Positions 10,173 through 38,526 of a stretch of 64,000 nt of DNA are shown here, one piece after another. The translations under genes and the position numbers were made by a program. The stretch spans positions 1-64,000 of the forward strand of contig NZ_QMFY01000020.1 of assembly GCF_003286915.1 (NCBI RefSeq). The letters are read 5' to 3'. The notes beneath the pieces were generated by a model that saw only the letters and a list, made by a program, of their open reading frames with translations, had not been told where the DNA came from and did no database searches. The DNA comes from Pseudochryseolinea flava. Lineage in GTDB: Bacteria > Bacteroidota > Bacteroidia > Cytophagales > Cyclobacteriaceae. The first letter of the stretch is position 1; each line of letters begins with the position of its first letter.

Positions 10173-10211
10173 CGACGAGATGGATATTATTGTCGGTAAG
10201 AAAAAAAGCCA

Positions 10212-10225: not shown

Positions 10226-10255
10226 CAGCCCTTCCTAAACAACTATCCCAAAAAA

Positions 10256-10738: not shown

Positions 10739-10779
10739 TGTAATAATTTTAATATAGATAATAAGACTTTACAGAAAGG

Positions 10780-12258: not shown

Positions 12259-12303
12259 ATTGAATTGGGTTAAGGTTATTAGTAATACGATAAGCTTGAT
12301 ATG

Positions 12304-14010
12304 CTACTGAACCATGACCTTTCTAATAATGGTCTTGTCTTTCACACGAACGTGAAGCATGTATAATCCAGGCTTGAGTCCATCAATCGAAATTTCCGTT
12401 TCCCGAGCAACGAGTTTTTGCTTTTTTATCAAAACACCCGACGAGTCGTAAAGCTTCAAGGAGGTGCTTCTCTTTATGTCTTCTTCAAAGGCAATCGTAA
12501 TTTTATCAGCCACTGGGTTTGGATACACTTTGAAAACGTTTCCGTCCTCTTCCGTGGCCAAGACAATTTCTTTTGCTTTGATGTTGAGATGATTGATGTT
12601 GAACGCACCATCACCCATGAGCAATCGCATGATATGCGTTCCTTGTGGAAGCGTAACTTCCTTTGAAATCGTTTGGTATGATTGCCAACCATTCGTATTG
12701 GGCACAACCATCTTCCCTGTAACATCCTCGGTACCGAATTCAACACGCACAGAGCTTCCTGTTGCATTCGCCGACGCAACGCGAATTTCTAGAACATACG
12801 TCCCTGCTATCGACACATTCACTGTATACTCTAGCCACTCACCGCCGCTTATCCACCCAACATTAAATCCGCCTTCACCGCAGTTTTCAATATCGACAAA
12901 TTCATCAGGTCTGTATTTTCCACCGTTGTTCGAACTATCACTGTCGCTATATGCAATGATTTGCCCACCGTTGTCGAAATCCTCAGCTTGAATAATCCCA
13001 GGTATAGGCCAGGCGTTGTTTCCATACGGCGTGCCATGGCCTTTCGTAGGCGTGACTTTTTGAATGGTACCGTCTTCATTGTAGAAAAGTTTATCAACAC
13101 ACACCGACCGTAGCCAATCGTTTCCTGATAGCGCACTATTGTGATAGAACGAATACCACTGCCCTTTATACTCAACGATCGATCCATGATTCGTATAACT
13201 ATCAGTTGGATCCATGTAGACACCACGCGCTGTCCAGGGTCCTAATGGACTTGTACTCGTCGCATAACGCATTCGATTATGTTTGATGCCATCGTCATTA
13301 TTATCCGAATGCGACAAGTAGTAAATCCCATTGCGTTTGTGAACCCACGTTGCTTCGTGAAAATCTTCCAGCCCTTCCATGGCTTTCATTTCGCCGTCAA
13401 TCTCCATCATGTTGGATTTCAATTTTCCGCCTTTACAGGTTCCTCCACCGCCGTAGTAGAAGTACGCTTGTCCATCGTCGTCAATAAACACGCACGGGTC
13501 GATATGAGACTCCAAGTTCGGAATGTAGCCTTGCACCGTAAATCCGCTGGCAGGACTCGTGCTGGTTGCCACACCGATCTTCCAGGTTGTATTCCATGAG
13601 GTGCCACTTGGATGAGGGAAGTAGAAGTAGTAAACACCATCTTTATAAGCACAATCTGGTGCCCACATAAAACCTCCCTCCGGTCGCCCCCAAGACACGT
13701 CGGAAGAACGAAGTATTTCGCCGTGGTCAGTCCAATGAGTCATATCATCGGTGGAAAACACATGGTATTGATCCATGAGATCCGCGCCTCTTGGCGGTGC
13801 GATGTCATGTGAAGGATACAGGTATAATCTTCCATCTTGCCAAACGTGCGCAGAAGGATCTGCAGTAAACATGTGTGTAATGAAAGGATTAGGCGGAACA
13901 TCATTTTGGGCCACGATCGTCCGCGGCAGAATACTCATCACCAACATTTGAATGGCGATGAACAGATACCCACTCCGTTGTAATTCAGAAGTTATTTTCT
14001 TCATAATCAT
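12304..14010 (-). CDS. GH43 glycoside hydrolase with CBM6 and T9SS sorting domain
   Basis: Secreted GH43 enzyme, five-bladed propeller, probably an exo-acting arabinosidase, xylosidase or galactosidase. The signal peptide ends near residue 35. The three catalytic acids of the family are visible: D51 in TADPSAHVW (base), D171 in SHIDPCVFIDDDG (pKa modulator) and E219 in DFHEATWV (acid). A CBM6-type module follows (about 345-470, IIQAEDFDNGG to FNINHLNIK), then a T9SS sorting domain (about 490-568). The start codon abuts the stop codon of the GH71/99 gene, which suggests translational coupling; a second ATG two codons in is an alternative start. A plant-type activity in an otherwise mannan-like locus is slightly odd, so the target glycan may carry side chains. 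Subfamily cannot be assigned by eye. Confidence 0.85.
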   Translation of the reverse strand: MIMKKITSELQRSGYLFIAIQMLVMSILPRTIVAQNDVPPNPFITHMFTADPSAHVWQDGRLYLYPSHDIAPPRGADLMDQYHVFSTDDMTHWTDHGEILRSSDVSWGRPEGGFMWAPDCAYKDGVYYFYFPHPSGTSWNTTWKIGVATSTSPASGFTVQGYIPNLESHIDPCVFIDDDGQAYFYYGGGGTCKGGKLKSNMMEIDGEMKAMEGLEDFHEATWVHKRNGIYYLSHSDNNDDGIKHNRMRYATSTSPLGPWTARGVYMDPTDSYTNHGSIVEYKGQWYSFYHNSALSGNDWLRSVCVDKLFYNEDGTIQKVTPTKGHGTPYGNNAWPIPGIIQAEDFDNGGQIIAYSDSDSSNNGGKYRPDEFVDIENCGEGGFNVGWISGGEWLEYTVNVSIAGTYVLEIRVASANATGSSVRVEFGTEDVTGKMVVPNTNGWQSYQTISKEVTLPQGTHIMRLLMGDGAFNINHLNIKAKEIVLATEEDGNVFKVYPNPVADKITIAFEEDIKRSTSLKLYDSSGVLIKKQKLVARETEISIDGLKPGLYMLHVRVKDKTIIRKVMVQ

Positions 14011-15321
14011 TTAGCGTGATGGTTTTTTGATTCCGTATATACCCTCTCCATGAAACCAATGTGCACCTTGCCCCGTAAGCCATAAATAGTAGTCGGTGCC
14101 AAGGCTATCTTCAATGCCGACAAACTTTAACCCGCTGTCACCATTGAGCGGCACATTGCTTTCGTTGTTCACTTTGTAGATCGCGGTGCCTTCATCTATT
14201 TCATCGAACATCGCTACGTAAAGGGCTTGGGCACCTTCCGTCTTTGCACCAGCAATCTGTCTCCACAAGAAATCACCTGCCAGTCTTGGAATCGAATTAT
14301 AAAGACTAGGATCGTTGTGCATATTTGCCCAACTGAACCCCGGAAAGACTAAAGGAACGTAATCAACGCGATTGGCCTTACACCACTTTACATCTTCGGC
14401 AACATTGTTTGGATTATAGTTAGCCATGCCATATCTGCCAACAGCCCAAGGCATGATAATGTCTGCCTTCCGGATCATATCGTGCAGCAAGGAATTACTT
14501 TGCGTGTCGCTGCCGAACGTTCTCCAATAATATGGCACCCCCAACATAATCGATACTTTTTTTGTAGCGATGAGTTTGTCCATCAATGCGTTTACATCGG
14601 ATAGGCTATACGCACGATTATCATTAAACCCAACACCCCAAATCGTCACAAGCGGCTTTCCATTGTGTTGTAGGTAAGTCGGATTTTCTTTGCTATCAAG
14701 AAGATCGAAGGTTTCTACAAGCTCGTTCCAATCCGTTTCGAGATAGGCCACATCGGAGGAAGAACAACCACTAAGATCGTACATCACACTGATGGCACGT
14801 TCATACTTCTTCGCGGCTTTCAATGCATTGGCGAGAACTTGATTGAAGTGTCGCTTTCCCTTCGTGTTGGTGGGCTTGATTTCGCCGACAAAGCGTTGCA
14901 TGTGAACACCATCAAGACCATAGTCCTTCATCCATTTAAAATGGACATCAACCGTGGATTCATCGTAGGGGCTATACACGTATGCACTCGCTCCATCGGG
15001 GTACTTAAAAGAAGTCTCATAAGTGATGCTATATTCCGATACATCAGGCCACAGGTCAACGTTGGTGCACCCTGGAAAAAATCCACAACCGTTTTTTTGA
15101 TAGTGGTACCAACCGCGTTTAGATTCGTCTCCTTCGGCGGCATGCCATCCTTGGTATCCTGCCATGACAAGTTTGTGGTAGCTTTGATACTTCGCGTTTG
15201 GATCTGGTGTAATTGTGCTGTCTTCTGGTTCCGGTGGCGTTACACCGTTATCATCGGAACACCCCGAACAACAAGCGATCATCGGAAACAGCAGAATGTA
15301 AATCAGTTTTATCATTTTCAT
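14011..15321 (-). CDS. GH71/99-like surface lipoprotein
   Basis: A 436-residue lipoprotein with Cys residues at 17, 18 and 21 in the lipobox region (MIACCSGC) and an acidic tether. The body is of the GH71/99-like family, opening with KLVMAGYQGWHAAEGD. Near the C-terminal end, MFDEIDEGTAIY places E374 and E377 three residues apart, like the catalytic pair of GH99 endo-alpha-mannosidases; GH71 members are alpha-1,3-glucanases. It therefore probably cuts internal alpha-linkages at the cell surface. It lies between the DUF3823 lipoprotein gene and the GH43 gene and abuts the latter. With GH92 in the same operon, an alpha-mannan target is the simplest reading, but this family is poorly characterised and the substrate is inference. 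Confidence 0.75.
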   Translation of the reverse strand: MKMIKLIYILLFPMIACCSGCSDDNGVTPPEPEDSTITPDPNAKYQSYHKLVMAGYQGWHAAEGDESKRGWYHYQKNGCGFFPGCTNVDLWPDVSEYSITYETSFKYPDGASAYVYSPYDESTVDVHFKWMKDYGLDGVHMQRFVGEIKPTNTKGKRHFNQVLANALKAAKKYERAISVMYDLSGCSSSDVAYLETDWNELVETFDLLDSKENPTYLQHNGKPLVTIWGVGFNDNRAYSLSDVNALMDKLIATKKVSIMLGVPYYWRTFGSDTQSNSLLHDMIRKADIIMPWAVGRYGMANYNPNNVAEDVKWCKANRVDYVPLVFPGFSWANMHNDPSLYNSIPRLAGDFLWRQIAGAKTEGAQALYVAMFDEIDEGTAIYKVNNESNVPLNGDSGLKFVGIEDSLGTDYYLWLTGQGAHWFHGEGIYGIKKPSR

Positions 15322-15413: not shown

Positions 15414-16109
15414 TTAGAGTTTAATACTTACCGCGGCTGCGTAGTTAAATTTCGCTTCGGGGACATCGATCAATGCACCGACACGAAAGAAGATCAACTT
15501 GCCTTCTCGTAAGTCGGGATCCGAAAAAGTATCCAACTCAATTTGAAATACTTCATTTGGATCAACGATCTCATTCACGTTGACTTCTTTGCGCGCAAGA
15601 TGCATTGGCTCACCGACATTTGGATCCGGATGTGCATACAACCCGACTTTCAACACATTACTCACGCTGGTTTGTTCTAGCCTAAACGTTGCACGAATGA
15701 TATTGCCATCTTTCTCGATGTCCAGGTCTTTAATCCTGATGTAGGGTGTCACGCGAAAGTCGAGCGTTGTCTGTCCTTTGACATTCACTTCCTGCGGGTC
15801 AACAACTTTGAAATTGCCGCGCTTCGGTTGCACCGTGTAGCTGTTTGCAAATAATCGCGTATTCGCATACGTCCCATCATTTTTTAAAACAAGGTATTGT
15901 GGCGTTACATATCCGTTCTCAACAATTTCAATGACGCCGCCGCGAATAATATCTTGTTGAACCAACTCACCTGTTTCATCATCGACAATGCGACCCGACA
16001 ACCCTGCGTCAGGCTGATCATAATTATCAAGGTCATTCAGCCCACATGACGACAAGAGCACGATCAAAGCGAATAGTAAAATAATCGATGTTATATTCTT
16101 TGTACTCAT
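15414..16109 (-). CDS. DUF3823 lipoprotein, SusE/F-like surface glycan-binding candidate
   Basis: A 231-residue lipoprotein of the DUF3823 family, found almost only next to SusC/SusD pairs. Cys22 in LLSSC is the lipidation site. The N-terminal half (about 35-125, LSGRIVDDETGELVQQ onward) looks like a carboxypeptidase-regulatory-type beta-sandwich and the C-terminal half like a second sandwich. By position, 28 bases after SusD, it should be an auxiliary surface binding protein. Binding has not been shown for most members, so the role comes from context. Confidence 0.8.
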   Translation of the reverse strand: MSTKNITSIILLFALIVLLSSCGLNDLDNYDQPDAGLSGRIVDDETGELVQQDIIRGGVIEIVENGYVTPQYLVLKNDGTYANTRLFANSYTVQPKRGNFKVVDPQEVNVKGQTTLDFRVTPYIRIKDLDIEKDGNIIRATFRLEQTSVSNVLKVGLYAHPDPNVGEPMHLARKEVNVNEIVDPNEVFQIELDTFSDPDLREGKLIFFRVGALIDVPEAKFNYAAAVSIKL

Positions 16110-16137: not shown

Positions 16138-18045
16138 TCAATATTGTGGATTTTGCACCAATCCATTCTCACCGATACCTTGCACAGGTCTATAGTAATC
16201 TTTCGGCTGAAAAGTTTGTGGATTAAAATTTGGCGCAGCCACACGAATGAAAATGTACTTCGGTGGACTTTCCCGCAGATCTAACACTGGAAGAAGCGCA
16301 TACTTCGGCCGGTTGTTAAAGTCAACATGATACTCCCTTCTGCGCATCAAATCCCAGAATCGTTTGTTCTCGAAGGCAAGCTCTACGGCTCTCTCGCGTT
16401 GGACATTTTCTACCGTCAATGGAATATCTGTAGTATGTGCTGCGCGTCTTCGGGTTGCATTCAAGGCCGCTTCGGCAGTGGCCATATCCCCTAAGCCACT
16501 TTCCACAACAGCTTCCGCGTAGTTCAACAAGACTTCGGCGTAACGGAACTCTAGCCAGTCCGTTGTGCTGCTATTCCATTGCGGCAATACAGGATTCGTA
16601 CTCATAAACTTCTTAAAAGAAAAACCGGTCTTCGTATTATTACCGCCATAAGGATCGAAACCAGAATACAAGTTTGGTGTGGCACCACCATAAGTATGAT
16701 AGACTGTCCCACTTACATTAATATTCGCTTTGGACAGCAACGTTGCTACGCCATTAGGAGCGACATAGCCAGCTTGAATAATAATCGTCTTATCTTTCCA
16801 TGTAGAGCCTGGCAATACAACGGTTGCTGCAAGCCTCGCATCTTTACCTTCAAAGATGTCAAGCGGAGAATCAAACTTGCGATACTCTTTCGACGAATTG
16901 TATCCGTTGTAGTCACCCACTTGTCCATCGGTTGTCGTCACAATCGTTCCGTCTTCGCCTGGATTATCATAGTATTCAAATTTATCAACGAGATCCAATG
17001 TTGGGTTCATTCTTCCTGGATGAGGCCAGCCATTGGCAACTTGCGCGGGCTGATACCAGATGTCGTAATTGTGACCATAGTCTGTTCCCACCAGCGTACG
17101 CCCTTTAATTAAAATGGCTTCCGTCCCTACCGTTTGGTTTGGATCACCGAACATGGCACGATAATTTTCCGTTGCCTCTTCCGCATTGGCTGGTGTTCCT
17201 CTGAACAGCGAAAACAATCCCGATTCCATAATTGCTTCCGCTGCATCAATCGCTTGTTGATAATAACCTTCTGCTAACGAGGCATCCAAACCCACGAGAC
17301 GTTGATCAACCGCAATACCAGACAATGGTGCCGTGTTACCGAATTTGGCTATCGACGCCGCGTGAAGCGCTACTCTACATTTCAATGCATAGGCAGACCA
17401 TTTCGAAGCACGTCGCGCGTCAAAATCTTCACTGAGCTTATCGATCGCTACATCACATTCCGCCAAAACAAAATTCCATGTATCCACTTCTGTGCTACGC
17501 GGTACTTTCAAGGCTTCAACATCGCCATCAAATTGCTGCGCCACGGTGATCAGGGGAACACCACCATACCGTTTTGCTAACGTGAAATAGCAGAACGCGC
17601 GAAGAAAAGATGCTTCACCCAAATAAGCATCTCGTTCGCTCTCTGAGATATTCAACGTTGGAATTACTTCAAACAATAAATTGATGTCCCTGATCACACG
17701 ATAGCCTTGATCTTTTCCATCTTGACTATCCCACCAACGTAAATCTTCATTGTTAATAAAATCACCACGTTCCGAATGCAAAGCTTCATCTGTCAACATT
17801 GCCCCTACAAATCCGCCGTTGTTCGGATCTTGCACATTATAGTTGAATCCTTGCTTCGGCGAATAGGTAAAATCTTCCATCGGCAATTGATAGTACAAGT
17901 TTGCCATGTACAACTTTGTTCCCTCGGGATCGGAAAATAAATCTTCAGCAGTAATTCTGTCTAAGGGTTTTAAGTCGAGCACATCGCTGCAACGTGTAGA
18001 CGAAAATGCCAATAGTACAAGAAATAGTATTTTGATATTTTTCAT
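16138..18045 (-). CDS. SusD/RagB family outer-membrane lipoprotein (PUL 1)
   Basis: A 635-residue SusD homologue that closes over the SusC barrel and captures the glycan. Cys19 in SSTRC is the lipid site. The N-terminal DVLDLKPLDRITAEDLFSDPEGTKLYMANLY and the helical TPR-like core (LGEASFLRAFCYFTLAKRYGGVPLIT) are diagnostic, as is the C-terminal ERAVELAFENKRFWDLMRRREY. It lies 11 bases downstream of SusC. Slightly longer than the usual 500-600 residues. Confidence 0.95.
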   Translation of the reverse strand: MKNIKILFLVLLAFSSTRCSDVLDLKPLDRITAEDLFSDPEGTKLYMANLYYQLPMEDFTYSPKQGFNYNVQDPNNGGFVGAMLTDEALHSERGDFINNEDLRWWDSQDGKDQGYRVIRDINLLFEVIPTLNISESERDAYLGEASFLRAFCYFTLAKRYGGVPLITVAQQFDGDVEALKVPRSTEVDTWNFVLAECDVAIDKLSEDFDARRASKWSAYALKCRVALHAASIAKFGNTAPLSGIAVDQRLVGLDASLAEGYYQQAIDAAEAIMESGLFSLFRGTPANAEEATENYRAMFGDPNQTVGTEAILIKGRTLVGTDYGHNYDIWYQPAQVANGWPHPGRMNPTLDLVDKFEYYDNPGEDGTIVTTTDGQVGDYNGYNSSKEYRKFDSPLDIFEGKDARLAATVVLPGSTWKDKTIIIQAGYVAPNGVATLLSKANINVSGTVYHTYGGATPNLYSGFDPYGGNNTKTGFSFKKFMSTNPVLPQWNSSTTDWLEFRYAEVLLNYAEAVVESGLGDMATAEAALNATRRRAAHTTDIPLTVENVQRERAVELAFENKRFWDLMRRREYHVDFNNRPKYALLPVLDLRESPPKYIFIRVAAPNFNPQTFQPKDYYRPVQGIGENGLVQNPQY

Positions 18046-18056: not shown

Positions 18057-21000
18057 TTAGAAGCTAAGATTAAGACCTACGTTATAAGATTTGATAACCG
18101 GGTAGGTGAAGCCAGCTCTATTACCACCACTACCCTCCAGTTTTTCAGGATCGAAAGGTTTTACAAAAGAATCGGCGAATGTGTGTAGGTTGAATCCACT
18201 CACATACAATCGAAGACTTTGAATGCCCACTTTTGAAATAAAGCTATGACGGAGCGTATATCCGAGCTCCACACTCTTTATTCTTAAGTACGATGCATCC
18301 TTTCTCCACTTGGAACTTTCGGCGTACATTCTCCCAACCGTTTCAACAGTCCTTGATGCTGGCCATTCACCTTTCACCCATTCGCTGTCTGGATCATAAG
18401 GATCAGCCTTGTGCCAACGATCGTAGAAGTAAGCAGGCGTATTTCCCCGGAACGCAAACAATTCGGCGTATACTTCAGAGAAGTACAAAGTATATTTTGC
18501 AGCACCCTGCAAAAGAATATTCAAATCAAAACCTTTCCATGCTGCATTTACGTTGAGACCGAAATGAATTTTAGGTGTGCCGTCATAAAATATCGGTGCT
18601 TCATCCTGTCCATCGATAACGCCATCGTTGTTGAGATCTTTGTAACGAAAATCACCTGGTAACTCTTTACGAATATTTCCTTGATCGCCATTTTGCATAG
18701 GCGCATAAAGCAGTTCTTCTTCATTTTGAAATTGCCCCGTGTACGTGTATCCCCATTCAATATCATTCCAACGATCGGCCTGCCCATTCCGATAACGATC
18801 CCAGCTATTGAGGAATCCACCACGCTCAACATGCAAATTTTTTGTGCGTGCATAATTGAAATTTCCAGATACGCTATACGTCAACTCATCAAATCGATTT
18901 TTATACGTAAGCGTGAATTCAATTCCTCGCGTGAGCTGACTGTTGATATTCTCTTCCGGCAGTTCACTACCGAAGGTGTTGGGTAAAGAAACATTTCTTC
19001 GCGTAGGAATACCTTCAAGCTTTCTATTGTACCAGTCGAATTCAAAAACAATTTTGTCATCGAATAATCCCACATCGTAGCCTAAGTCAAATTGCTTGGA
19101 TGTTATCCAACTTAAATTTTCATTCACAATGGGCGGCGCACCTACCCCAGTGGTGAGTGTACCATCTGCAAATTCGTAAGAACCACCGCTACCAATAACA
19201 TATCCAGGCACGAATTGAAATGGAATACCGCCTCCTGAACCAACCATCCCGTATGAGCTACGCAACTTAAGATTCGATATGAAAGCGAAGCGCTCCATAA
19301 ATTTTTCTCCGGTAACACGCCAACCTACCGAAGCGACGGGGTGAAATCCCCAACGGTTACTTGGGCCATAAGCATAGCTTCCCATGTAACGCCCGGCGAG
19401 CTCTAAAAGATATTTACCCTTGAAATCATAATTCAAGCGACCAATGTAGGATAGCGATGCCGATTGATTTTCCAGTCCATCGTTTTCCATACGCTGACGA
19501 TCAGCAAAACGAATTTGATCCTTCGTATAAAATCCTGCATAGTATCGCGTGAGATTCGACCAACGATCGTTCCACTGATTCTGTTCAACAACAAACACAG
19601 CGTTTACGTGATGCTTTCCAAAAAAATTATTATCATAATTAATATACCCCTGAAGCGTTACAGCATTGTTGTTACTATTGTAATTTCCAAGATTACCTGT
19701 TCCCAATCTCTGCGGCACGGGAACATATGGGTTTGACTCGTTCTCATCATACGTATAAAGATTGTAAGGCTTGAATAGCGACTTACCTTGATAATTGTTC
19801 GCATCATAGGAAGCAACACCCTTCAGCGATAGTCCTTTCACAAAGGGTACCTTATACTGAAGCGAAAATGAAGATTGCAAATTACGCGTCATGCCTTCTC
19901 CATAGCCAGTCAGATCTCTTTCCGACAACGCCAGTGGATTTTGAGTCGACAACACCGGCGCATAAAAACCAGGCGTGTTATTGGCATATGGCTTTTCAAT
20001 TGGCAAGGTCACACGTGTTCCTTTAAAGATGTTAAAGAAATTTTCGCCAGGTTCCCAACGTTCATCAAATCTACCGGCAACGAGGAACTGACCTTCTAAA
20101 TTCTTGGCGAGATTCATCGTAACGTTCGCGCGAATATTGTATCGCTTGTAGCCCATGTCTTCACTTTTTAAAAGTCCTTGTTCGTTCACATAACCTAGGC
20201 CGATGAAGTATCGCATAAAATCATTTCCGCCTGAAGCCGAAAGATTATGCTGAATCTGCGTAGCATATTTTTTCATGGTAAGATCATACCAATCTGTACT
20301 CTCATAACCTGGTGCGCCGTCGATATATTTTTGAATTTCCTCTTTCGGCAAATAAGGTTGTCCTCCTGGACGAAAGAGTTGTGCGTCGTTATACATTTGA
20401 ACATACTGCGCAGCATTTGCCATCTTTGGCATGTCCGTTGGCGTCATCGCACCGGCAACTACGCTGTAATTGAAAGTTGGTCTACCAGAACCTTTTTTTG
20501 TGGTGATCAGAATTACACCATTCGATGCACCAAGACCGTAAATCGCCGCCGATGCATCTTTGAGTACGGTGATACTTTCAATATCGTTTGGATTGAGTCG
20601 TTGAAATTCATTTCCACCTTCACGACGGATACCATCAATTACATAGATAGGCTCACCAAATCCACGAATGTTGATGGAACTATTGAAGTCTCCAGGTTGC
20701 CCTGAATTTTGTCGGATGTTAACAGCGGCTAACTTCCCTTGAAGTTTCTGCGCCAAACTGGTATGCGTTGTGGTTTGAATTTCTTTTGTTGAAATGGTAC
20801 TGATGGCTCCGGTGAGACTTTCTCTTTTTTGTTCCGCATAACCGACAACAACCACCTCATTGAGTGTTGCTACATCGGCTTCGAGTCTTACATCGATAAC
20901 CGTTTTTCCATCGACGACAATTTCTTGCGTTACATACCCGATAAAAGAAAACACAAGTGTCGATGATTGGTCCGCTACGGTCAGCGAAAACTTACCTTCG

Positions 21001-21242
21001 CTATCGGTTACCGTTCCATTCGTTGTTCCTTTCTCGATAACGTTAACACCAGGCATGCCAGCACCAGCGGCCTCTGTTACTGTTCCACTTACAGAAATTG
21101 CATGGGAAGAGCTAAGCACATTCCCTGGTGGCGATTGTGTTGAATGATGCCCTTCAATGTTCAGATCGTTCGCACCTGTTTGCGCTTGTAAGAACGATCC
21201 GACACCAATCATGAAGAGCAAAAACATGGAGATTTTACGCAT
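18057..21242 (-). CDS. SusC/RagA TonB-linked outer-membrane transporter (PUL 1)
   Basis: A 1061-residue TonB-dependent oligosaccharide importer. Signal peptide 1-20, then a carboxypeptidase-regulatory-like domain (about 48-128, with GMPGVNVIEKGTTNGTVTD), the SusC signature LNEVVVVGYAEQKRESLTG, a plug domain (to about 255, ILITTKKGSG) and the barrel, ending YNVGLNLSF. It has no N-terminal STN domain, so it is not expected to signal to a FecR anti-sigma factor, which fits the absence of such a pair here. It lies 64 bases after GH92 and 11 before SusD. Confidence 0.95.
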   Translation of the reverse strand: MRKISMFLLFMIGVGSFLQAQTGANDLNIEGHHSTQSPPGNVLSSSHAISVSGTVTEAAGAGMPGVNVIEKGTTNGTVTDSEGKFSLTVADQSSTLVFSFIGYVTQEIVVDGKTVIDVRLEADVATLNEVVVVGYAEQKRESLTGAISTISTKEIQTTTHTSLAQKLQGKLAAVNIRQNSGQPGDFNSSINIRGFGEPIYVIDGIRREGGNEFQRLNPNDIESITVLKDASAAIYGLGASNGVILITTKKGSGRPTFNYSVVAGAMTPTDMPKMANAAQYVQMYNDAQLFRPGGQPYLPKEEIQKYIDGAPGYESTDWYDLTMKKYATQIQHNLSASGGNDFMRYFIGLGYVNEQGLLKSEDMGYKRYNIRANVTMNLAKNLEGQFLVAGRFDERWEPGENFFNIFKGTRVTLPIEKPYANNTPGFYAPVLSTQNPLALSERDLTGYGEGMTRNLQSSFSLQYKVPFVKGLSLKGVASYDANNYQGKSLFKPYNLYTYDENESNPYVPVPQRLGTGNLGNYNSNNNAVTLQGYINYDNNFFGKHHVNAVFVVEQNQWNDRWSNLTRYYAGFYTKDQIRFADRQRMENDGLENQSASLSYIGRLNYDFKGKYLLELAGRYMGSYAYGPSNRWGFHPVASVGWRVTGEKFMERFAFISNLKLRSSYGMVGSGGGIPFQFVPGYVIGSGGSYEFADGTLTTGVGAPPIVNENLSWITSKQFDLGYDVGLFDDKIVFEFDWYNRKLEGIPTRRNVSLPNTFGSELPEENINSQLTRGIEFTLTYKNRFDELTYSVSGNFNYARTKNLHVERGGFLNSWDRYRNGQADRWNDIEWGYTYTGQFQNEEELLYAPMQNGDQGNIRKELPGDFRYKDLNNDGVIDGQDEAPIFYDGTPKIHFGLNVNAAWKGFDLNILLQGAAKYTLYFSEVYAELFAFRGNTPAYFYDRWHKADPYDPDSEWVKGEWPASRTVETVGRMYAESSKWRKDASYLRIKSVELGYTLRHSFISKVGIQSLRLYVSGFNLHTFADSFVKPFDPEKLEGSGGNRAGFTYPVIKSYNVGLNLSF

Positions 21243-21306: not shown

Positions 21307-23571
21307 TCAATCAGCCTTAACATTTTCCGTCGGTTTGTGAACCATTTCAAATTCAAGTGTCCCTCCTTTTAAGAGGTCTTGATATTGAATGAATGGTTTT
21401 GACAGCGTCGTGCCGTTGAATTTCACTTTCTTCACGTATTTATGAGAAGGACTATTGTTGATGGCTTTGATTGAAAGGCGTTTCCCATTTTGAAGATTGA
21501 TTGTCACTTCGTCAAACAGTGGTCTACCCAATGTAAATGTTGGATCACCAGGCGCTACTTGATAAAGTCCCATACTGCTCAGAATAAACCAAGACGACAT
21601 TTGGCCACAGTCTTCGTTGCCTGATAATCCATTGGGATCATTGAAATAAAGTGTTGTTAGAATTTGATCAACTAGTTGTTGTGTCTTCCATGGTTGCGAG
21701 ACGAAATTGTAGAGATAAGTGATGTGATGACTCGGTTCATTGCCATGTGCATATTGACCAATCAACCCAGAGATATCAGCCGAAGAATTATTACCATCGA
21801 CAGAAGAGCTTGTTGAAAATAAGCTATCAAGCTTCACTGCAAATTTCTTTTCACCACCATAAAGTGATATAAGGCCTGGAACATCATGAGGAACAAACCA
21901 AGACCACTGCCAAGCATTCCCTTCTACATATTCATCTTTTCTATGATTAGAATATCGCGGATTGAATGGCGACTTCCATGTTCCATCTTCGTTCACACCA
22001 CGCATGAAACCTACCTGTTTATCGAAATACTTCTGATATCGTTTTGATCGCGCATAAAATTTCTTGTAATCTTCTTCCTTGCCCAATGCTTTTGCCATCG
22101 TGGCAATACACCAGTCGTTGTAAGCGAACTCCAACGCTTTCGACACGGATTCATTTTCCTTGTCGGCTGGAATAAATCCCAGCTTCTCATTGTAGAATTT
22201 CGCTTTCGGCATTAACCCCTCTTGCACTTCATGATCTGCAAAAGCAATTGACGTATCATAAGTAGACGCGTGAACGATAGCTTCGTAAGCTTTGTCTATA
22301 TCAAAATTGCTATGGCCTTTCATGTAGGAATCGACAATGACCGGAACGGCATGATATCCAATCATCGTTCCTGTTTCATTGGCGGCAAGTTCCCACATAG
22401 GCAACGCTCCGCTCTCGTCATATTTTTGTAGTAGCGAGCGAATCCAGGCTTCGTTTTGAGAAGGATTGATGATGGTCATGAGTGGATGAAATGCGCGAAA
22501 AGTATCCCACAACGAAAACACGGTGTAATTTGAATTACTCCCGCTACTGCGGTGTATTTGCTTATCCATCCCACGGTAATGACCATCATAATCCATAAAG
22601 AGATTGGGACTGATCGCCACGTGATAGAGTGCAGTAAAAAATATCTTCTGTTGATCTTTTGTTCCGCCTTTGATTGAGATTCGATCAAGCCACAGCTTCC
22701 ATGCTTGTGCTGCATTTTCTTTAATCTGATCAAAACTCCAGTTCGGAATTTCCTTTAGTACATTTTCTTTTGCGCCATCAAAACCTACCGCTGAAATACC
22801 AACCTTCACCAACACTTCACGCTTACTGAGATGATTGAATTTCAAGAGTGCCTTTGCGCCTGTATTGCTGATTTTACTGTCAGTAGAAGCGAGCACTTCT
22901 CCATTTGCTAATTGAAAGGAGAACGATTCAGAAAAAACCGCATGAAAATATACATGGTGCTCGCGTGCCCAACCTTTTGTCAGTTTATATCCTCTGATCT
23001 CATGATCGTTAATGATCTCAATTTGATTGATTTCGTTGCGATGGCTTTGCAACGTGTGGGCTACATCAACAATGATCCCTGCATCATTTATGTTATTGAA
23101 TGTATAGCGATGAAATCCTGCGTGCGTTGTTGCGGTGAGTTCCGCTTTCACGTCATAATCTTTGAGCACCACGGAATAGTATCCGGGCGTTGCGACTTCT
23201 GTACCTGTTACCTTTAATGATGCATAACCATGATCTGGATTTTCAGCTGTGCCTTGCGTGAGTTCCTGTTTCCCAACCGTCGGCATGAAAAGAATGTCGC
23301 CATAATCGCCAATACCGGTACCGCTAAGGTGTGTGTGTGAAAAACCTAAGATAGCAGGATCGGAAATATGATACCCAGAGCAAGCATCCCAACCGTTGAG
23401 TCGAGTATCAGGACTCAGTTGCACCATTCCATACGGAACAGTCGCCCCTGGAAAAGTGTGACCATGACCACCCGTTCCGATGAATGGATTCACGAGAGAA
23501 AGCTTGTCCGTTTGTCCAAATGTTTGAACGACACTAAAAAAGAAAAGAGATAACGAAAGAAGTTTGTGCAT
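21307..23571 (-). CDS. GH92 exo-alpha-mannosidase, first gene of PUL 1
   Basis: A 754-residue exported GH92 enzyme; the family consists of calcium-dependent exo-alpha-mannosidases acting mostly on alpha-1,2 or alpha-1,3 linkages. Signal peptide 1-19 (QTFGQ). Family words are VNPFIGTGGHGHTFPGA and PYGMVQLSPDT at the start, YVEGNAWQWSWFVPHD (E550, which I take for the general acid by recollection of the family) and GNEDCGQMSSWFILSS near the C-terminus. No lipobox and no T9SS tail, so it is likely periplasmic and trims imported oligosaccharides. It heads the operon and is transcribed divergently from the kelch/BTAD regulator at 23726. Confidence 0.92.
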   Translation of the reverse strand: MHKLLSLSLFFFSVVQTFGQTDKLSLVNPFIGTGGHGHTFPGATVPYGMVQLSPDTRLNGWDACSGYHISDPAILGFSHTHLSGTGIGDYGDILFMPTVGKQELTQGTAENPDHGYASLKVTGTEVATPGYYSVVLKDYDVKAELTATTHAGFHRYTFNNINDAGIIVDVAHTLQSHRNEINQIEIINDHEIRGYKLTKGWAREHHVYFHAVFSESFSFQLANGEVLASTDSKISNTGAKALLKFNHLSKREVLVKVGISAVGFDGAKENVLKEIPNWSFDQIKENAAQAWKLWLDRISIKGGTKDQQKIFFTALYHVAISPNLFMDYDGHYRGMDKQIHRSSGSNSNYTVFSLWDTFRAFHPLMTIINPSQNEAWIRSLLQKYDESGALPMWELAANETGTMIGYHAVPVIVDSYMKGHSNFDIDKAYEAIVHASTYDTSIAFADHEVQEGLMPKAKFYNEKLGFIPADKENESVSKALEFAYNDWCIATMAKALGKEEDYKKFYARSKRYQKYFDKQVGFMRGVNEDGTWKSPFNPRYSNHRKDEYVEGNAWQWSWFVPHDVPGLISLYGGEKKFAVKLDSLFSTSSSVDGNNSSADISGLIGQYAHGNEPSHHITYLYNFVSQPWKTQQLVDQILTTLYFNDPNGLSGNEDCGQMSSWFILSSMGLYQVAPGDPTFTLGRPLFDEVTINLQNGKRLSIKAINNSPSHKYVKKVKFNGTTLSKPFIQYQDLLKGGTLEFEMVHKPTENVKAD

Positions 23572-23725
23572 TGCCGTTGATTAAAATACTGGCGTAAACC
23601 TATCGGCAGGTGCTTAAAATCGAATTAATATCTGCTTAACGAGGAAATTCAAACGATTTTTTAAAGCAATTCTTCAATATTTTAGATAATTTGGTAAAAA
23701 AGTGGTGGCGTGTTGCGAACACTAT
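23572..23725. promoter_or_regulatory. Divergent promoter region of PUL 1 and its candidate regulator
   Basis: 154 AT-rich bases between the GH92 start and the kelch/BTAD start must hold both promoters and the likely binding site of the regulator. No strong palindrome is visible. I cannot place a clear Bacteroidota -33/-7 pair. Confidence 0.5.
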
Positions 23726-26275
23726 ATGCGAAGTTTTTTCTTTCTCATAGTCTTCCTGAATCTTCCTTACCTCCTTCAAGCACAACAACAACGGATCGAT
23801 CCCCAATATGGTCTCGCGTTTGCCTCGCATGAAGTGACTAAAGATCATCGAACGGGCTTAAATCTTAATCCCGACACTCCTTATATTATAGAGCAAGATT
23901 TTTCACTCTCGTTCGACTTTACATTGCAACGGCTTACCAATGCTTACGGCTACATCGTGCGCATCATCGCAAATGACACACTTAATATCGATTTGATGTG
24001 TACACCAGAGCACGATGATGAATTCAACGATCTCACAATGGTAATCAACAATAAGCCAATGCCACTCCGTTACGAATTTGCGGATGTAGGATTCCAACCC
24101 AATCAATGGACAACCTTCGACCTACACTTCTCATTTAAAAAGAATACGATTACAATTCTCTGGAAAGGCAAATCGCAGTCATATCCGTGCAACCTGCAAC
24201 ATCTCAACGCATTTCGTTTCTATTTCGGTGTGAATGATTACGCAAAGTTCAGTACATCCGACGCACCACCAATGGTCATCAAAAACATAACGTTGAAAGA
24301 AAATAATACACTCAACAAAAAGTGGTTGTTGCAGAAACACAATCACTTAGAGGTATACGATAGCGTTGCGAATTCCACCGCAACTGTTGTCAATCCAAGG
24401 TGGCTCATTGACAAACAAACAAAATGGGTACATCGCAAAAGTTTTAACATTGGAAAATATCCGTCTATTGCATTCAATAACGAAGCAGGCATTCTTTATG
24501 CAACAGATGAACGTAATCTTTATCAATATGATCTTCGCAACGGATCTGTTGATATCAAGCAAAACAAAAAAGGACATGTTGTATTTACTGACGCTAATCA
24601 ACTACTCTATGTTAATAACACACACGCCCTGGTGAACTACGACGTGTTCAGTAACAAAATTGCAACGTATGATTTCACCACCAACACATGGGGCCATGCC
24701 GACACAACGTATCTTGAACCTAACTATTGGCACAATAACAAATTTTATAATGCTGTAAATAAATCTTTATATGTATTCGGTGGTTATGGACACTTCACCT
24801 ATAAAAACAATTTCTTTCGCTACGACGAAAAGTCAAACCAATGGGAAACGGTAAAAACTTCTGGTTCAATTCCACCGCGTTATCTTTCCGCAGCCGGCAT
24901 TCGTGAATCAACTGGCGATGTACTGATCTTTGGCGGTTACGGAAGCATGAGCGGTAAGCAAGAGCTTTCACCACAAAGTTTCTACGATCTGTACAAATTC
25001 AACCTCACCTCACATGCAATCGAAAAAATACGTTCTTATGCGCCAGCCGAAGCAAGGGAAGACATCGTATTTTCCAATTCGCTCATTATAAATGAAGAGA
25101 AAAAATGTTTCTATACATTATCCTATCCTAAAAACAAATACGACAGTTACGTTCAATTGCGACAATACGCGTTAGAGAATGGAGAATCAAAAATCGTGGC
25201 AGACTCGATTCCGTTCCGATTCCACGACGAAGATTCATTTTGTGATCTTTTCCTCTCCCCTGCTACAAATGAATTGATTGCGGTGCTCGTATACGAAGAT
25301 GAAGGTCAGTATCAAGTGAATGTTCATGCTATACAATATCCGCCAATGCAAGCTGGCGATGTGCTCCAAGCACCAACGAACAAAAACAGTTCTTCCTTGG
25401 TGTTTGCAACATTATTCCTGTTACCTACTGCCATCGTCGGATACGTCGTTTGGAAGCGTCGACAAAGGGTAACCGTTCGTAATACAGTTGCCCCAATTCC
25501 ATCGGAACATACAACAACGGCAACACTACCGCTGCGAGACGAAAGTAAAATCACTTCCGCGATTCTATTGCTTGGCGGCTTTCAAGTCTTGGACAAGAAG
25601 GGCGTCGATATCTCATCGAAATTCACGATGACACTGAAGGAACTTTTTACAATCATCCTCTTACACTCCATTCGACATGAAAAAGGAATTTCGGCTACTG
25701 AAATTCAAGAACATCTATGGCCCGAAAAGGACGAAGTGAGCGCTCGCAATAACCGTAATGTAAATATCAAAAAGCTTCGGGCCCTCCTGGATGATATCGG
25801 TGGTATATCGGTCGAGAACAACAACGCTTATCTTAACCTCACCATTGACGATTTTGTTTTTTGTGACTATCAAACTGTCTATCGATTACTCCACGACAAC
25901 AATCCTGCTTTGGCAGAAGGCGATAAAATAAACATTCTCATCAGGCATGTAACGCGGGGAAGCTTACTACCAAACATGCAATCAAATTGGCTTGACAACT
26001 TCAAATCAGAAATTTCAAATCAAATTATTGATGCGTTATTAGAATACTCTCAAAAACTAGATCCGAAGACAAACGATAAACTCCTGCTCGAAATCGCCGA
26101 CGCCATTTTTGCATACGATACCATTAACCAAGAGGCGTTGGTTATCAAATGTTCTGTGCTGAACAAGAAAGGAAAATATTCACTAGCAAAAACATGGTAC
26201 GACCATTTCGTGAAAGAATATAAAAACTTATACGCAGAGAACTATCCTAAAAGTTTTGATGAAGTTATTTCGTAG
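23726..26275 (+). CDS. Membrane one-component regulator: LamG-like/kelch sensor, TM, winged-helix plus BTAD-like output
   Basis: A protein of about 849 residues that I read as a transmembrane transcription factor. The ATG at 23726 is preferred to the upstream GTG at 23702 because it opens a clean signal peptide (MRSFFFLIVFLNLPYLLQAQ). Residues about 20-195 resemble a LamG/concanavalin-type sandwich. Residues about 230-530 hold kelch-type blades (SLYVFGGYGHFTYKNNFFRY, DVLIFGGYGSMSG). A single membrane segment lies at about 557-577, followed by KRRQR. The cytoplasmic part begins with ILLLGGFQVLDKKGVDIS and continues with ISATEIQEHLWPEK and NRNVNIKKLRALLDDIGG, an OmpR/SARP-type winged helix, then a helical BTAD-like tail. 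It is divergent from the GH92 PUL and upstream of GH95, so it may sense a glycan outside and bind DNA inside. No phosphorylation domain is present. Function is inference from architecture and position. Confidence 0.7.
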   Translation: MRSFFFLIVFLNLPYLLQAQQQRIDPQYGLAFASHEVTKDHRTGLNLNPDTPYIIEQDFSLSFDFTLQRLTNAYGYIVRIIANDTLNIDLMCTPEHDDEFNDLTMVINNKPMPLRYEFADVGFQPNQWTTFDLHFSFKKNTITILWKGKSQSYPCNLQHLNAFRFYFGVNDYAKFSTSDAPPMVIKNITLKENNTLNKKWLLQKHNHLEVYDSVANSTATVVNPRWLIDKQTKWVHRKSFNIGKYPSIAFNNEAGILYATDERNLYQYDLRNGSVDIKQNKKGHVVFTDANQLLYVNNTHALVNYDVFSNKIATYDFTTNTWGHADTTYLEPNYWHNNKFYNAVNKSLYVFGGYGHFTYKNNFFRYDEKSNQWETVKTSGSIPPRYLSAAGIRESTGDVLIFGGYGSMSGKQELSPQSFYDLYKFNLTSHAIEKIRSYAPAEAREDIVFSNSLIINEEKKCFYTLSYPKNKYDSYVQLRQYALENGESKIVADSIPFRFHDEDSFCDLFLSPATNELIAVLVYEDEGQYQVNVHAIQYPPMQAGDVLQAPTNKNSSSLVFATLFLLPTAIVGYVVWKRRQRVTVRNTVAPIPSEHTTTATLPLRDESKITSAILLLGGFQVLDKKGVDISSKFTMTLKELFTIILLHSIRHEKGISATEIQEHLWPEKDEVSARNNRNVNIKKLRALLDDIGGISVENNNAYLNLTIDDFVFCDYQTVYRLLHDNNPALAEGDKINILIRHVTRGSLLPNMQSNWLDNFKSEISNQIIDALLEYSQKLDPKTNDKLLLEIADAIFAYDTINQEALVIKCSVLNKKGKYSLAKTWYDHFVKEYKNLYAENYPKSFDEVIS

Positions 26276-26424
26276 CCGCTAACCTCGCCAGTCTCTAAAA
26301 TCGTTATCACTACCCGTTACTACATATTCTTTATTTCGATATTCAATTCCCGTATTCATTAATTCGTTATTAAGTATAAATTAATGCAGTCAGTTTATGT
26401 TTGTCGGTATCATCATGTGATTCT

Positions 26425-28875
26425 ATGTTAAAATGTATTGCTATTACGATCTTCTTCGCGTCGCTTGTAACCGAAATTCAAGCTCAACAACATCAGCTCT
26501 GGTACGACAAACCGGCCGCCAACTGGAATGAAGCGCTTCCCATCGGAAACGGGCGTATTGCTGCAATGATCTTCGGTGGTCCTGGTCAAGAAAGATTGCA
26601 ACTCAATGAAGAAACGGTTTGGGCAGGCGAACCAGGCAATAACATTCCATCGACTGCTTTTTATGAATCGCTACGTACGATACAAAAATCAATCTTCGAT
26701 GGAGACTACCAATCAGCACACGATCGAGCGATGACAGTCGTACCACGGCATGCTCCCTCTGACAATAACTACGGAATGCCCTATCAGCCCGTGTGCGATG
26801 TACTGATAACCTTCCCCGGACACGATAACTTCAAACAATACAAACGGACATTAGACATTGGCCAAGCCGTGAGTACGACAACCTACGAGGTTAATGATGT
26901 TATGTTCACACGTGAAATTTTCAGCTCATTCACAGATCAAGTTTTTATTGTGCGCATGTCCGCGAGCGAGAAAAATAAGATCACATGTAAAATATCTTTA
27001 ACATCGCCACATGAAAAATACTCAATACGTTCGTCTGTAGACAATATAATTTTAACTGGAACATCTGGATCACACGCCAACAAAAAGGGCAGCGTATTAT
27101 TTACAACAATTGCGAAAGCAATTAATGTTGATGGACAAATTTCTACTATCGACAATAGTATCGTCATTGAAGGCGCATCAACCGTCACGTTATTTATTTC
27201 GATCGGAACAAACTTCAAAAGTTATAACAACGTCAGTGGTGATCAACTCAAGAAAGCTACTGACTACATATCATCTGCGACACAGAAAAAATATAGCGAT
27301 CTTAAGTACAGTCATATAAAATATTACAAAAAGTTTTATGATCGTGTTTCGCTATCGCTTGGCAGTAGCGAACCTGCGCGTAAGCCAACCAATATTCAGC
27401 TGGAAGAATTCAAAGACACAGAAGATCCAACACTTGTTGCGCTCTACTATCAGTTTGGAAGATATCTGTTGATTTGCTCTTCTCAACCAGGAACGCAGCC
27501 CGCGAACTTGCAAGGAAAGTGGAACAACTCACTGTCACCACCGTGGGACAGTAAGTATACGATCAATATCAACACAGAGATGAATTATTGGCCAGCGGAA
27601 GTCACCAATTTATCAGAGCTTCATCAACCACTCTTCATGATGTTGAAAGACTTGGAGCAAACGGGAAAAGTAGCCGCTGAAAAATTATATCGAGCACGTG
27701 GATGGGTTGTACATCATAACACAGACTTATGGAGAATAGCAGGGCCAGTGGATGGTTCGTACTACGGATTGTGGCCCATGGGTAGTGCATGGCTTTCCCA
27801 ACATATTTGGCAACATTATTTATTCACAGGCGATAAAAACCATCTTCAAAAATATTACACAACACTGAAAGGCGCGGCGTTGTTTTATCACGACATTCTC
27901 GTTGAAGAGCCGAAAAACAAATGGTTAGTGGTGTCGCCATCGATGTCGCCAGAGAATGAACATCGTCGCGGAATCTCTATCGCAGCGGGCACAACGATGG
28001 ACAACCAATTGGTATTTGATGTTTTCTCCAATTTCATTGACGCGTCAACAATACTAACACAAGATGAAGCACTACGAGATTCAATTATTCAAAAGCGGAA
28101 TCGTCTTGCGCCCATGCAAGTTGGGCAATTTGGTCAACTCCAAGAATGGTTAGAGGATTGGGACCGCGCCGACGACAAACATCGCCACGTGTCGCACCTT
28201 TATGGGCTTTATCCTTCAAATCAAATTTCAGTCTTTAGACATCCATCGCTTTTTCAAGCAGCACGCACATCATTGATCCACCGCGGCGACCATTCCACCG
28301 GATGGTCGATGGGATGGAAAGTAAATTTATGGGCACGACTACTCGACGGCGAAAGAGCGTATCAACTTATTAAGGCACAACTCACGCCTGTACACGAGGG
28401 AGAATCTCACGGCGGAACGTATTTGAATCTCCTTGACGCACATCCACCATTTCAAATCGATGGAAACTTCGGATGTACATCAGGAATCACAGAGATGCTG
28501 GTACAAAGTCATGATGGTGCAATTCATCTCCTTCCTGCACTTCCAGCACGTTGGTCTTCCGGATCTGTAAGCGGGATCAGAACCCGGGGTGGTTTTGAAA
28601 TTGATCTCTCATGGAATCATGGCCGCACACGCGAATTAAAAGTAACTTCTACCATTGGTGGCATCTGTAGGATACGAAGTACAATTCCGTTACACGATGA
28701 TCGATTGAAAAAGGTCGACTTGAAAAACACAAACGAATTACTTCGCGTAAATGAAATCAAGCAACCTGTCATTTTAAAACTTACAACGGAACAATCCTTT
28801 GTGGCGCCCGTCGTATATGAATACGACTTTACTACAGAAAGAGGAAAAGTATACGCTTTTGTTGTAGCAGAATAA
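26425..28875 (+). CDS. GH95 family alpha-fucosidase (or alpha-galactosidase)
   Basis: About 816 residues; the ATG at 26425 is preferred to the TTG at 26401 because it starts a signal peptide (MLKCIAITIFFASLVTEIQA). The GH95 signature LWYDKPAANWNEALPIGNGR follows at once. From memory of the Bifidobacterium AfcA enzyme, the catalytic residues should be N381 and N383 in the NIN of INTEMNYWP, E510 in SMSPENEH and D679 in FQIDGNFG, all present. The family inverts alpha-1,2-fucose linkages; some members act on alpha-L-galactose. No lipobox or T9SS tail, so probably periplasmic. It follows the kelch/BTAD gene by 149 bases on the same strand and may belong to the same regulon as PUL 1. Confidence 0.9.
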   Translation: MLKCIAITIFFASLVTEIQAQQHQLWYDKPAANWNEALPIGNGRIAAMIFGGPGQERLQLNEETVWAGEPGNNIPSTAFYESLRTIQKSIFDGDYQSAHDRAMTVVPRHAPSDNNYGMPYQPVCDVLITFPGHDNFKQYKRTLDIGQAVSTTTYEVNDVMFTREIFSSFTDQVFIVRMSASEKNKITCKISLTSPHEKYSIRSSVDNIILTGTSGSHANKKGSVLFTTIAKAINVDGQISTIDNSIVIEGASTVTLFISIGTNFKSYNNVSGDQLKKATDYISSATQKKYSDLKYSHIKYYKKFYDRVSLSLGSSEPARKPTNIQLEEFKDTEDPTLVALYYQFGRYLLICSSQPGTQPANLQGKWNNSLSPPWDSKYTININTEMNYWPAEVTNLSELHQPLFMMLKDLEQTGKVAAEKLYRARGWVVHHNTDLWRIAGPVDGSYYGLWPMGSAWLSQHIWQHYLFTGDKNHLQKYYTTLKGAALFYHDILVEEPKNKWLVVSPSMSPENEHRRGISIAAGTTMDNQLVFDVFSNFIDASTILTQDEALRDSIIQKRNRLAPMQVGQFGQLQEWLEDWDRADDKHRHVSHLYGLYPSNQISVFRHPSLFQAARTSLIHRGDHSTGWSMGWKVNLWARLLDGERAYQLIKAQLTPVHEGESHGGTYLNLLDAHPPFQIDGNFGCTSGITEMLVQSHDGAIHLLPALPARWSSGSVSGIRTRGGFEIDLSWNHGRTRELKVTSTIGGICRIRSTIPLHDDRLKKVDLKNTNELLRVNEIKQPVILKLTTEQSFVAPVVYEYDFTTERGKVYAFVVAE

Positions 28876-32684: not shown

Positions 32685-33130
32685 AGCATTATATTAGCCC
32701 GCAAAGATACATGTGCGAAATTTACCAACAGCAATAGAACGAATCCCTTCGATGATTTTTACCCTCGTTTAGTCGGACAAATAGCAACCACGGCGACCAA
32801 TTTTCTATTTTACTGAACCGTCAAGCTTCGGCGTAGCGCCCACTACCTGCACTATTCGTGCACCCTCCTTGCGCGATCACTGTGTAGATGAAGTCTGCTT
32901 CACTAGGTAGCGAAGCCACCAACACCGCCCGGATCTTACGAGTTTTTCGTTGTCTATTCGATGGAGAAAATGTTGATGTCATCAGATTTTCTTGTCCCTT
33001 GTTTTAACGCGTCCATCATATTAGTGTATGTTTCAACACTTAAAAAAATCATGCCCTTTGCGCGTCAGATCCTCAACATTTGTTCGTGAAACGTGCGGAC
33101 AATCGATTACATAAAACATATTGACACACG

Positions 33131-33175
33131 CGCACACTTACCACGCTTGTCGTGTGAGTGCACGGCGTTTTTTTT
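33131..33175 (+). terminator. Hairpin with T-run upstream of the sigma gene
   Basis: CACG-CTTGT-CGTG (33142-33154) with partial outer pairing and eight T at 33168-33175. It looks like an intrinsic terminator, yet no plus-strand gene precedes it. It may end antisense or read-through transcription. Confidence 0.3.
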
Positions 33176-33202
33176 GTTGCGTCGATGGTTTTTTATATTT
33201 TG
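33173..33202 (+). promoter_or_regulatory. Possible Bacteroidota-type promoter of the sigma/FecR unit
   Basis: TTTG at 33173-33176 and TATATTT at 33194-33200 resemble the -33 TTTG and -7 TAnnTTTG elements, with a 17-base gap that is slightly short. The ATG follows 44 bases later. Weak evidence. Confidence 0.3.
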
Positions 33203-33245
33203 GTCGAAGCCACCGAGCTATACAAGTTCCCTTTCAATATTGACA

Positions 33246-33869: not shown

Positions 33870-33934
33870 AAATTTCAAAAAATAATTTTCAATAGACTGG
33901 TAAAAAGCGAGGGCACGCCCCTTTGCATTAGTGT

Positions 33935-34957: not shown

Positions 34958-35171
34958 CGTAAACAGGCTCTCTATGAAAATAAACGTGTACAACAAGATG
35001 AATTCAATTGGAAGCAGCGACCCTTTTCAAACAGGGTAAACAAAGGACAACTCCTACTCCCAATTAACCAATAGCATATATTTTATCGAACAACGCATAG
35101 GCGCGACACTAGGCCACTCACCTAAGCTCGCGTTATGGAATGATTTTGTCTCAACCCTAACCTAACTAACA

Positions 35172-38513: not shown

Positions 38514-38526
38514 AATCGACTCAACT

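Follow-up and report, generated by a model that had tools for sequence, protein, structure and literature searches.

A kelch-sensor, membrane-anchored protein with a SARP-type module as the most likely activator of a polysaccharide utilization locus in Pseudochryseolinea flava

What controls PUL 1, a polysaccharide utilization locus (PUL) headed by a gene of glycoside hydrolase family 92 (GH92) in a 64,000-nucleotide stretch of the Pseudochryseolinea flava genome (contig NZ_QMFY01000020.1, positions 1 to 64,000; hereafter the window)? The regulation of Bacteroides PULs is described with three types of regulator (PMC3878776). Among those open reading frames (ORFs) of the 10-29 kb part of the window that were scanned, we found neither an extracytoplasmic function (ECF) sigma factor with FecR nor a hybrid two-component system (HTCS), and the SusC-like transporter of PUL 1 has no STN domain at E<=0.1, both as stated in the original prediction, which was made from the letters alone. 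The ORF divergent from GH92 (21307-23571, minus strand) and followed by GH95 (26401-28875, plus strand), an arrangement confirmed here, had been read as a glycan receptor that binds DNA from the membrane, and this reading is supported in silico. We consider it most likely that the protein, a kelch-sensor, membrane-anchored, one-component SARP-type activator, controls PUL 1 from two promoters by the full mechanism proposed below.

The regulator ORF runs from an ATG at 23726 to a stop ending at 26275, with a GTG at 23702 as a possible alternative start. Its full-length AlphaFold2 model, based on a 39-sequence alignment, has a mean predicted local distance difference test score (pLDDT) of 88.5. 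The protein and its predicted parts are as follows.

23726..26275, plus strand: kelch-type transmembrane SARP-type regulator, 849 amino acids (ORF, Pfam, AlphaFold2, Foldseek)
23726..23785, plus strand: predicted signal peptide, residues 1-20 (helix 2-20 in the model, hydropathy)
23855..24391, plus strand: beta-sandwich domain, residues 44-222 (AlphaFold2; 'LamG-like' by secondary structure only)
24428..25336, plus strand: kelch beta-propeller, residues 235-537, putative periplasmic sensor (Pfam, AlphaFold2, PDB fold matches)
25388..25462, plus strand: transmembrane helix, residues 555-579, positive-inside toward the C-terminus (AlphaFold2, hydropathy)
25463..25540, plus strand: flexible linker, residues 580-605 (pLDDT < 50 at 580-603)
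25559..25846, plus strand: OmpR/SARP-type winged helix, residues 612-707 (AlphaFold2, Foldseek, Pfam of the isolated domain)
25865..26269, plus strand: BTAD-type TPR-like helices, residues 714-848 (AlphaFold2, Foldseek, hhalign)

The kelch-type sensor of the original prediction is upheld by several Pfam kelch models above cut-off at residues 305-436, inside the modelled propeller, and the best PDB fold matches of the full-length model are mostly kelch propellers (LZTR1, KLHDC and plant specifier proteins). The single membrane helix was likewise recovered, with an excess of lysine and arginine (K/R) on its C-terminal side. Across the family, 47 of 48 members have a hydrophobic stretch with a window score of at least 1.6 ahead of the cytoplasmic module, and the K/R count is higher after this stretch than before it in 47/48, as expected if the N-terminus is exported and the C-terminus lies in the cytoplasm. 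The LamG-like label given to the N-terminal region has no profile support: Pfam has no LamG match there at E<=0.1, the beta-sandwich is seen in the model only, and LamG identity of residues 44-222 was rejected after hhalign against Pfam-confirmed LamG domains returned 2.8%. No HisKA, HATPase_c or receiver domain was found in the regulator by Pfam at E<=0.1, and by prediction a DNA-binding domain and a transmembrane helix share one chain with no kinase, as in one-component transmembrane regulators. An NCBIfam scan gave a single match, at chance level.

For the last 240 residues a winged helix with a BTAD-like tail had been proposed, and the predicted fold agrees, with EmbR and AfsR as its closest relatives. 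The C-terminal part modelled alone (46-sequence alignment; pLDDT 94.7, predicted TM-score 0.88) matched six PDB chains at E<=0.001 in Foldseek, all of them EmbR or AfsR, with query-relative TM-scores of 0.62-0.67; the fold alignment spans the whole module, with the BTAD-type tail directly behind the winged helix. By sequence, Pfam Trans_reg_C remains below cut-off in the window protein (E 0.068; E 0.011 for the isolated domain) and reaches E<=0.1 in 11/46 members, BTAD reaches the same level in 7/46, the window protein not among them, and a PDB sequence-profile search returned weak PhoB/SaeR matches (E 0.035-0.061) together with two TPR chains. A profile of the 46 cytoplasmic parts finds more proteins in the phylum, and all six of the weaker-scoring matches scanned with Pfam (L139, L144, L146, L147, L150 and L152) carry BTAD above cut-off. 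Compared by hhalign, the 46-member module and a set of nine proteins, of which six have a BTAD confirmed by Pfam, align at 99.8% (E 1.6e-28, 233 columns), and four other domain pairs at 0.2-2.8%; since the nine-protein set was itself found by the profile, this match confirms the BTAD link and does not discover it. As judged from predicted fold and sequence, the cytoplasmic module is SARP-type. It occupies residues 612-848 behind the transmembrane helix, not the N-terminal place of the classical SARPs, and is therefore named SARP-type here and not a classical SARP.

Relatives of the kelch regulator occur in 19/98 genomes of the taxonomic family (18 strong matches, one weak) and in 18/194 genomes of the order (13 with kelch-type matches, 2 in which just the LamG type occurs, and 3 with weak matches). 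The named relatives, at 47-56% identity, belong to Chryseolinea, Parachryseolinea, Chryseosolibacter and Dawidia, and the P. flava genome itself encodes one paralogue at 26% identity. Alignment A1 left out L041 and L044 (near duplicates), L029 (early ORF end), L056 (the gene of L048), L008 and L026 (one fragment, one weak match), L051-L053 and L058 (weak matches), and the nine LamG-type proteins. Gene neighbourhoods were compared at 46 loci, with flanks mostly of 8-10 kb and shorter at contig ends, comprising 39 of kelch type, including the window, and seven of LamG type; the kelch matches L029, L041, L044 and a fragment on G029:C379, and the LamG-type matches L050, L057 and G016:C18, stand outside this set.

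The expectation that homologues sit near PULs was borne out. SusC, SusD or GH92 genes lie beside the regulator in 36/39 kelch-type loci, with SusC or SusD in 31 and GH92 in 18, and in one genome (G015) the sole GH92 gene lies ~2.6 kb from the regulator. GH92 is present in 14/34 loci vs a chance of 1.7% per locus (binomial P 2e-16), and SusD of the PF07980 type in 17/34 vs a chance of at most ~15% per locus (P 2.6e-6). These background frequencies come from 30 genomes and use the larger, first-look counts; per-genome tallies in these scans and in that of the triples below are complete, except that several genomes have at least ~54 matches in the other count. STN was sought in 26 of the 30 SusC ORFs, the remaining four lacking the N-terminus, as do L086 and L090 within the 26. 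It was found in 2/26 proteins (24 with intact N-terminus), namely the SusC of PUL 2 in the window and that of L084, both beside FecR; at L083 FecR is adjacent and there is no STN match.

The intergenic region 23572-23725, which had been singled out for binding, holds a conserved SARP-style triple repeat, a candidate site recognized from sequence. In an alignment of this region from the window and the four named genera, three blocks are kept at 11-bp steps and the 4-bp spacers vary. The window has two instances of TTAA-N7-TTAA-N7-TTAA, one here and one at 26359-26384 just before GH95, each with a promoter-like box beside it.

23613..23641, minus strand: candidate operator 1, facing GH92; CTTAAAA-tcga-ATTAATA-tctg-CTTAACG in plus-strand reading (conserved in the window and the four named genera)
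23595..23602, minus strand: -7-like box TAGGTTTA, assigned to the GH92 operon; it begins 11 bp past the last TTAA and differs from TAnnTTTG by one letter (box search)
26357..26385, plus strand: candidate operator 2, ahead of GH95; CATTAAT-N4-TATTAAG-N4-AATTAAT (pattern search)
26396..26403, plus strand: -7-like box TATGTTTG, assigned to GH95; it begins 11 bp past the last TTAA (box search)

The phase of the repeat was counted in 48 kelch loci (975 kb), made up of the 39 kelch loci and nine more distant ones (L130-L138). TTAA triples number 31 at period 11, 7 at period 12, 1 at 13, 1 at 17, 4 at 22 and 0 at all other periods from 5 to 27, and among all 256 tetramers TTAA ranks first at period 11 with its 31 triples, the next having 7. 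In the 42 loci that remain when the window and its named kin are set aside, a Markov model expects ~0.5 triples and 22 are seen. In the 39 loci, all 27 clusters of exact triples are intergenic and lie at most 350 bp upstream of a gene, intergenic bases making up 9%; L003 and L005 have additional copies ahead of SusC. Published SARP operators are described as direct repeats at 11 or 22 bp whose 3' repeat lies 8 bp from the -10 element (PMC10936776), and the PimR operator as three heptamers with 4-nt spacers (PMC5930380). Direct repeats at 11 or 22 bp were found in silico in 18/39 kelch loci. The period-11 triple is present in 0/7 LamG-type loci, and at 11-bp phase neither the five loci of a paralogue group nor 11 others nor the seven of LamG type had another tetramer that rose above the rest.

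The boxes beside these triples recall TANNTTTG, the published Bacteroidota -7 element (PMC6847099). The end of the last heptamer and the -7-like box are 10 bp apart at both window sites, close to but not the same as the 8 bp to the -10 element published for SARPs. Within 45 bp of a triple, five exact TAnnTTTG boxes were found for the 31 triples, all at offset 11.

Genome-wide, the 6.5-Mb P. flava genome has 7 triples vs 2 in the reversed control: two at PUL 1, three in a stretch that also encodes a Response_reg-Trans_reg_C regulator and histidine kinases, and two elsewhere. In that stretch, L166 (G000:C33:10000-29900), one triple lies between the gene of a Response_reg-Trans_reg_C regulator and a trehalose-phosphate synthase/phosphatase gene, and the other two precede a mechanosensitive-channel gene and a single-receiver gene. 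When the triple and the -7 box are scored as a composite, the two best sites in the P. flava genome are the promoters of GH95 (0 mismatches) and GH92 (1 mismatch), and the other five have 2 mismatches. Composites with at most one mismatch sit at the regulator's own locus in 2/2 cases in G000, 5/5 in G007, 1/2 in G090, where the sole perfect composite is at the regulator, and 2/4 in G231, four genomes picked after their triple counts had been seen. In G007 all 8 triples fall within one 32-kb stretch that holds the regulator. Thirteen genomes with the regulator have 136 triples vs 86 in the reversed control, and eight relatives without a regulator match have 38 vs 39.

Domain folds, family, PUL linkage and phased sites were obtained by computation; for ligand, DNA binding, activation and action at the membrane we infer the following course. 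The exported beta-sandwich and kelch propeller would detect a periplasmic glycan or a fragment of one, and the gene content of the locus (GH92, GH95 and GH43) suggests an alpha-mannose-containing glycan as the ligand. The single helix would relay the signal across the inner membrane to the SARP-type winged helix with its BTAD tail, as the predicted fold and presumed topology allow. The cytoplasmic domains would then bind cooperatively to the three TTAA-centred heptamers at 11-bp phase beside the -7 box. RNA polymerase would thereby be recruited at two promoters, with sites located by comparative genomics, one serving a predicted GH92-SusC-SusD-DUF3823-436aa-GH43 operon and the other GH95. In PUL 1 the kelch regulator would thus replace the ECF/anti-sigma pair, HTCS or SusR protein of other PULs. 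The genes under its presumed control are listed below.

21307..23571, minus strand: GH92, first gene of the predicted operon (Pfam)
18057..21242, minus strand: SusC-like TonB-dependent transporter lacking STN (Pfam)
16138..18045, minus strand: SusD-like protein (Pfam)
15414..16109, minus strand: DUF3823 protein (Pfam)
14011..15321, minus strand: 436-amino-acid protein with no Pfam match, of a cluster that recurs in 12/46 loci (Pfam, clustering)
12304..14010, minus strand: GH43 with CBM6 (Pfam)
26401..28875, plus strand: GH95, with a listed TTG start at 26401 and a probably better ATG at 26425 (Pfam, ORF list)

Since the predicted -7 box spans the TTG at 26401, ATG 26425 is the likelier start of GH95. 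The GH92 content makes the name 'mannan-type' plausible for PUL 1. Another PUL-linked cluster, of ~734-amino-acid proteins (L079:14121-16322), recurs in 5/46 loci, and its scanned representative has no Pfam match. PUL 2 of the window (33093-40170), with ECF sigma, FecR, an STN-bearing SusC and SusD, provides a built-in contrast to PUL 1, which among the ORFs scanned is not of the type that pairs ECF sigma/FecR with an STN-bearing SusC; the ECF/FecR pair nearest to PUL 1 (33093-34957) is part of PUL 2. On the other side, a PAS-kinase-receiver hybrid (7335-10172) gave no DNA-binding domain at E<=0.001.

Several observations weigh against activation of PUL 1 by the kelch regulator as set out above. 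The exact triple is absent from 21/39 kelch loci, from all 9 more distant loci and from the five-locus paralogue group, and when spacers of 7 or 8 bp are allowed, 34/36 clusters in the 48 loci are intergenic and 2/36 lie inside genes. No SusC, SusD or GH92 was found near the regulator in 3/39 kelch loci (L068, L074 and L091), in the second of which a GH38 protein adjoins it. The binomial tests count related loci as independent, and their P values are too small because many loci come from related genomes. The triple is not exclusive to the kelch regulator, given that 3/7 triples of the P. flava genome lie in the Response_reg-Trans_reg_C stretch, one of them directly before the gene of that regulator, and in G034, G049 and G184 triples are genome-wide not above the reversed control. 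The boxes are also imperfect: only 5/31 triples have an exact TAnnTTTG, of 18 TAnnTTT near triples only 6 are at offset 11 and 12 at other offsets, and the box on the GH92 side keeps no more than TAnnTT in the four named genera. All five exact boxes have G at an n position, unlike Flavobacterium johnsoniae promoters, in which G is described as virtually absent at both n positions of the -7 element (PMC6847099); the G-containing boxes may be weak promoters dependent on an activator, or no promoters. Operator 1, finally, lies in the region common to GH92 and the regulator, yet it leaves the regulator's own promoter unexplained.

Three other explanations draw on the same material. With the same sensor and operator, regulated proteolysis might free the cytoplasmic SARP-type domain into the cytosol, and the 26-residue flexible linker behind the transmembrane helix, whose length varies among members, would tolerate cleavage. 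We nevertheless hold release to be improbable: by published account, transmembrane transcription regulators do their work from the cytoplasmic membrane (PMC10269533), and no protease is among the 20 neighbour proteins scanned, which counts weakly, as some recurrent clusters were unscanned or had no Pfam match. Alternatively, a separate OmpR-family response regulator might bind the TTAA triples, leaving the kelch protein some other role; the three exact triples in the Response_reg-Trans_reg_C stretch mean that such regulators may use this geometry. Against this stand the clustering of all G007 triples around the kelch gene, the mere background level in the eight relatives that have no regulator match, the lack of any triple in the LamG-type loci with their sister regulator, and the window itself, where no two-component regulator is seen beside the kelch gene, and we regard such an arrangement as very improbable. 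We give equally little credence to a repressor, or a mere autoregulator, in place of a PUL activator. The intergenic region common to GH92 and the regulator would suit it, as would the overlap of the site with the expected place of the -33 element; the position upstream of the -7 box, however, resembles that of SARP activators, and the second site, before GH95, is separate from the regulator's promoter.

The same kind of transmembrane helix and SARP-type module recurs in a sister subfamily (L093-L099), placed behind a LamG domain that Pfam confirms (Laminin_G_3) in 6/6 members scanned. Its loci have SusC/D in 1/7 and GH92 in 0/7, and most of them adjoin GFO/IDH/MocA oxidoreductases, 3-keto-disaccharide hydrolases or DUF5916 proteins, so that the LamG-type proteins may regulate a 3-keto-glycoside pathway. 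Among the more distant loci, L138 has tandem regulators (7998-12489; 646 and 853 amino acids), and L133 (6993-10714) has an 869-amino-acid regulator together with a 259-amino-acid protein that holds little beyond the cytoplasmic module. On balance we favour, with moderate assurance, a wider reading in which transmembrane SARP-type proteins with exchangeable sensors form a further class of Bacteroidota PUL regulators beside ECF/anti-sigma, HTCS and SusR. The kelch type would read alpha-mannoside-type glycans via GH92/Sus loci and the LamG type substrates of the 3-keto-glycoside pathway, and the kelch type would activate from the membrane, with three protomers aligned along the phased heptamers next to the -7 box.

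Our results point to a switch of sugar genes via a kelch receptor as an undescribed route to glycan use in this member of the Bacteroidota; no Bacteroidota regulator of this kind was found in the open-licence PMC literature, a scope that leaves its absence in print unproven. If the reading is true, PULs have a further regulator type whose operator is readable, and regulons could be predicted from sequence; the way SARPs activate genes, familiar chiefly from antibiotic clusters of actinobacteria, would extend to membrane-bound nutrient sensing; and a simple system would be at hand for how a membrane-anchored transcription factor binds DNA.

With the SARP activators AfsR, EmbR and PimR, the kelch regulator shares a winged helix followed by a BTAD-type tail, but its module is C-terminal, lies behind a transmembrane helix and shares its chain with an exported kelch sensor. 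EmbR carries an FHA domain. AfsR differs from the kelch regulator in the NOD and TPR domains described behind its SARP domain (PMC10936776). In sequence, the candidate operators resemble SARP operators as direct-repeat heptamers with 4-nt spacers near a -10/-7 element; repeat number and spacing agree closely, and position is similar (10 vs 8 bp). In ToxR and CadC, the cytoplasmic winged helix is N-terminal and the periplasmic sensor C-terminal, whereas the kelch regulator has the reverse order, with a C-terminal winged helix and a BTAD-type tail. It shares with them, and with the transmembrane transcription regulators described in PMC10269533, the one-component design, the transmembrane helix and the winged helix; BTAD and kelch were not found in the main text of that census, and the kelch regulator would probably escape a census built on Pfam, because its winged helix falls below the Pfam cut-off. 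The Bacteroides hybrid two-component systems, as described in PMC3878776, resemble it in that one PUL-linked chain holds both a large sensor in the periplasm and a DNA-binding domain in the cytoplasm, but the kelch regulator has, by Pfam, no kinase, phosphoacceptor or receiver. SusR, described in the same source as a Bacteroidota PUL activator and a single membrane protein that couples a sensor in the periplasm to a DNA-binding domain in the cytoplasm, has the design predicted here for the kelch regulator; the two are set apart by description, in that the DNA-binding domain of SusR is reported to have no significant similarity to the corresponding domains of other known transcription factors (PMC3878776), whereas that of the kelch regulator is, by its predicted fold, SARP-type.

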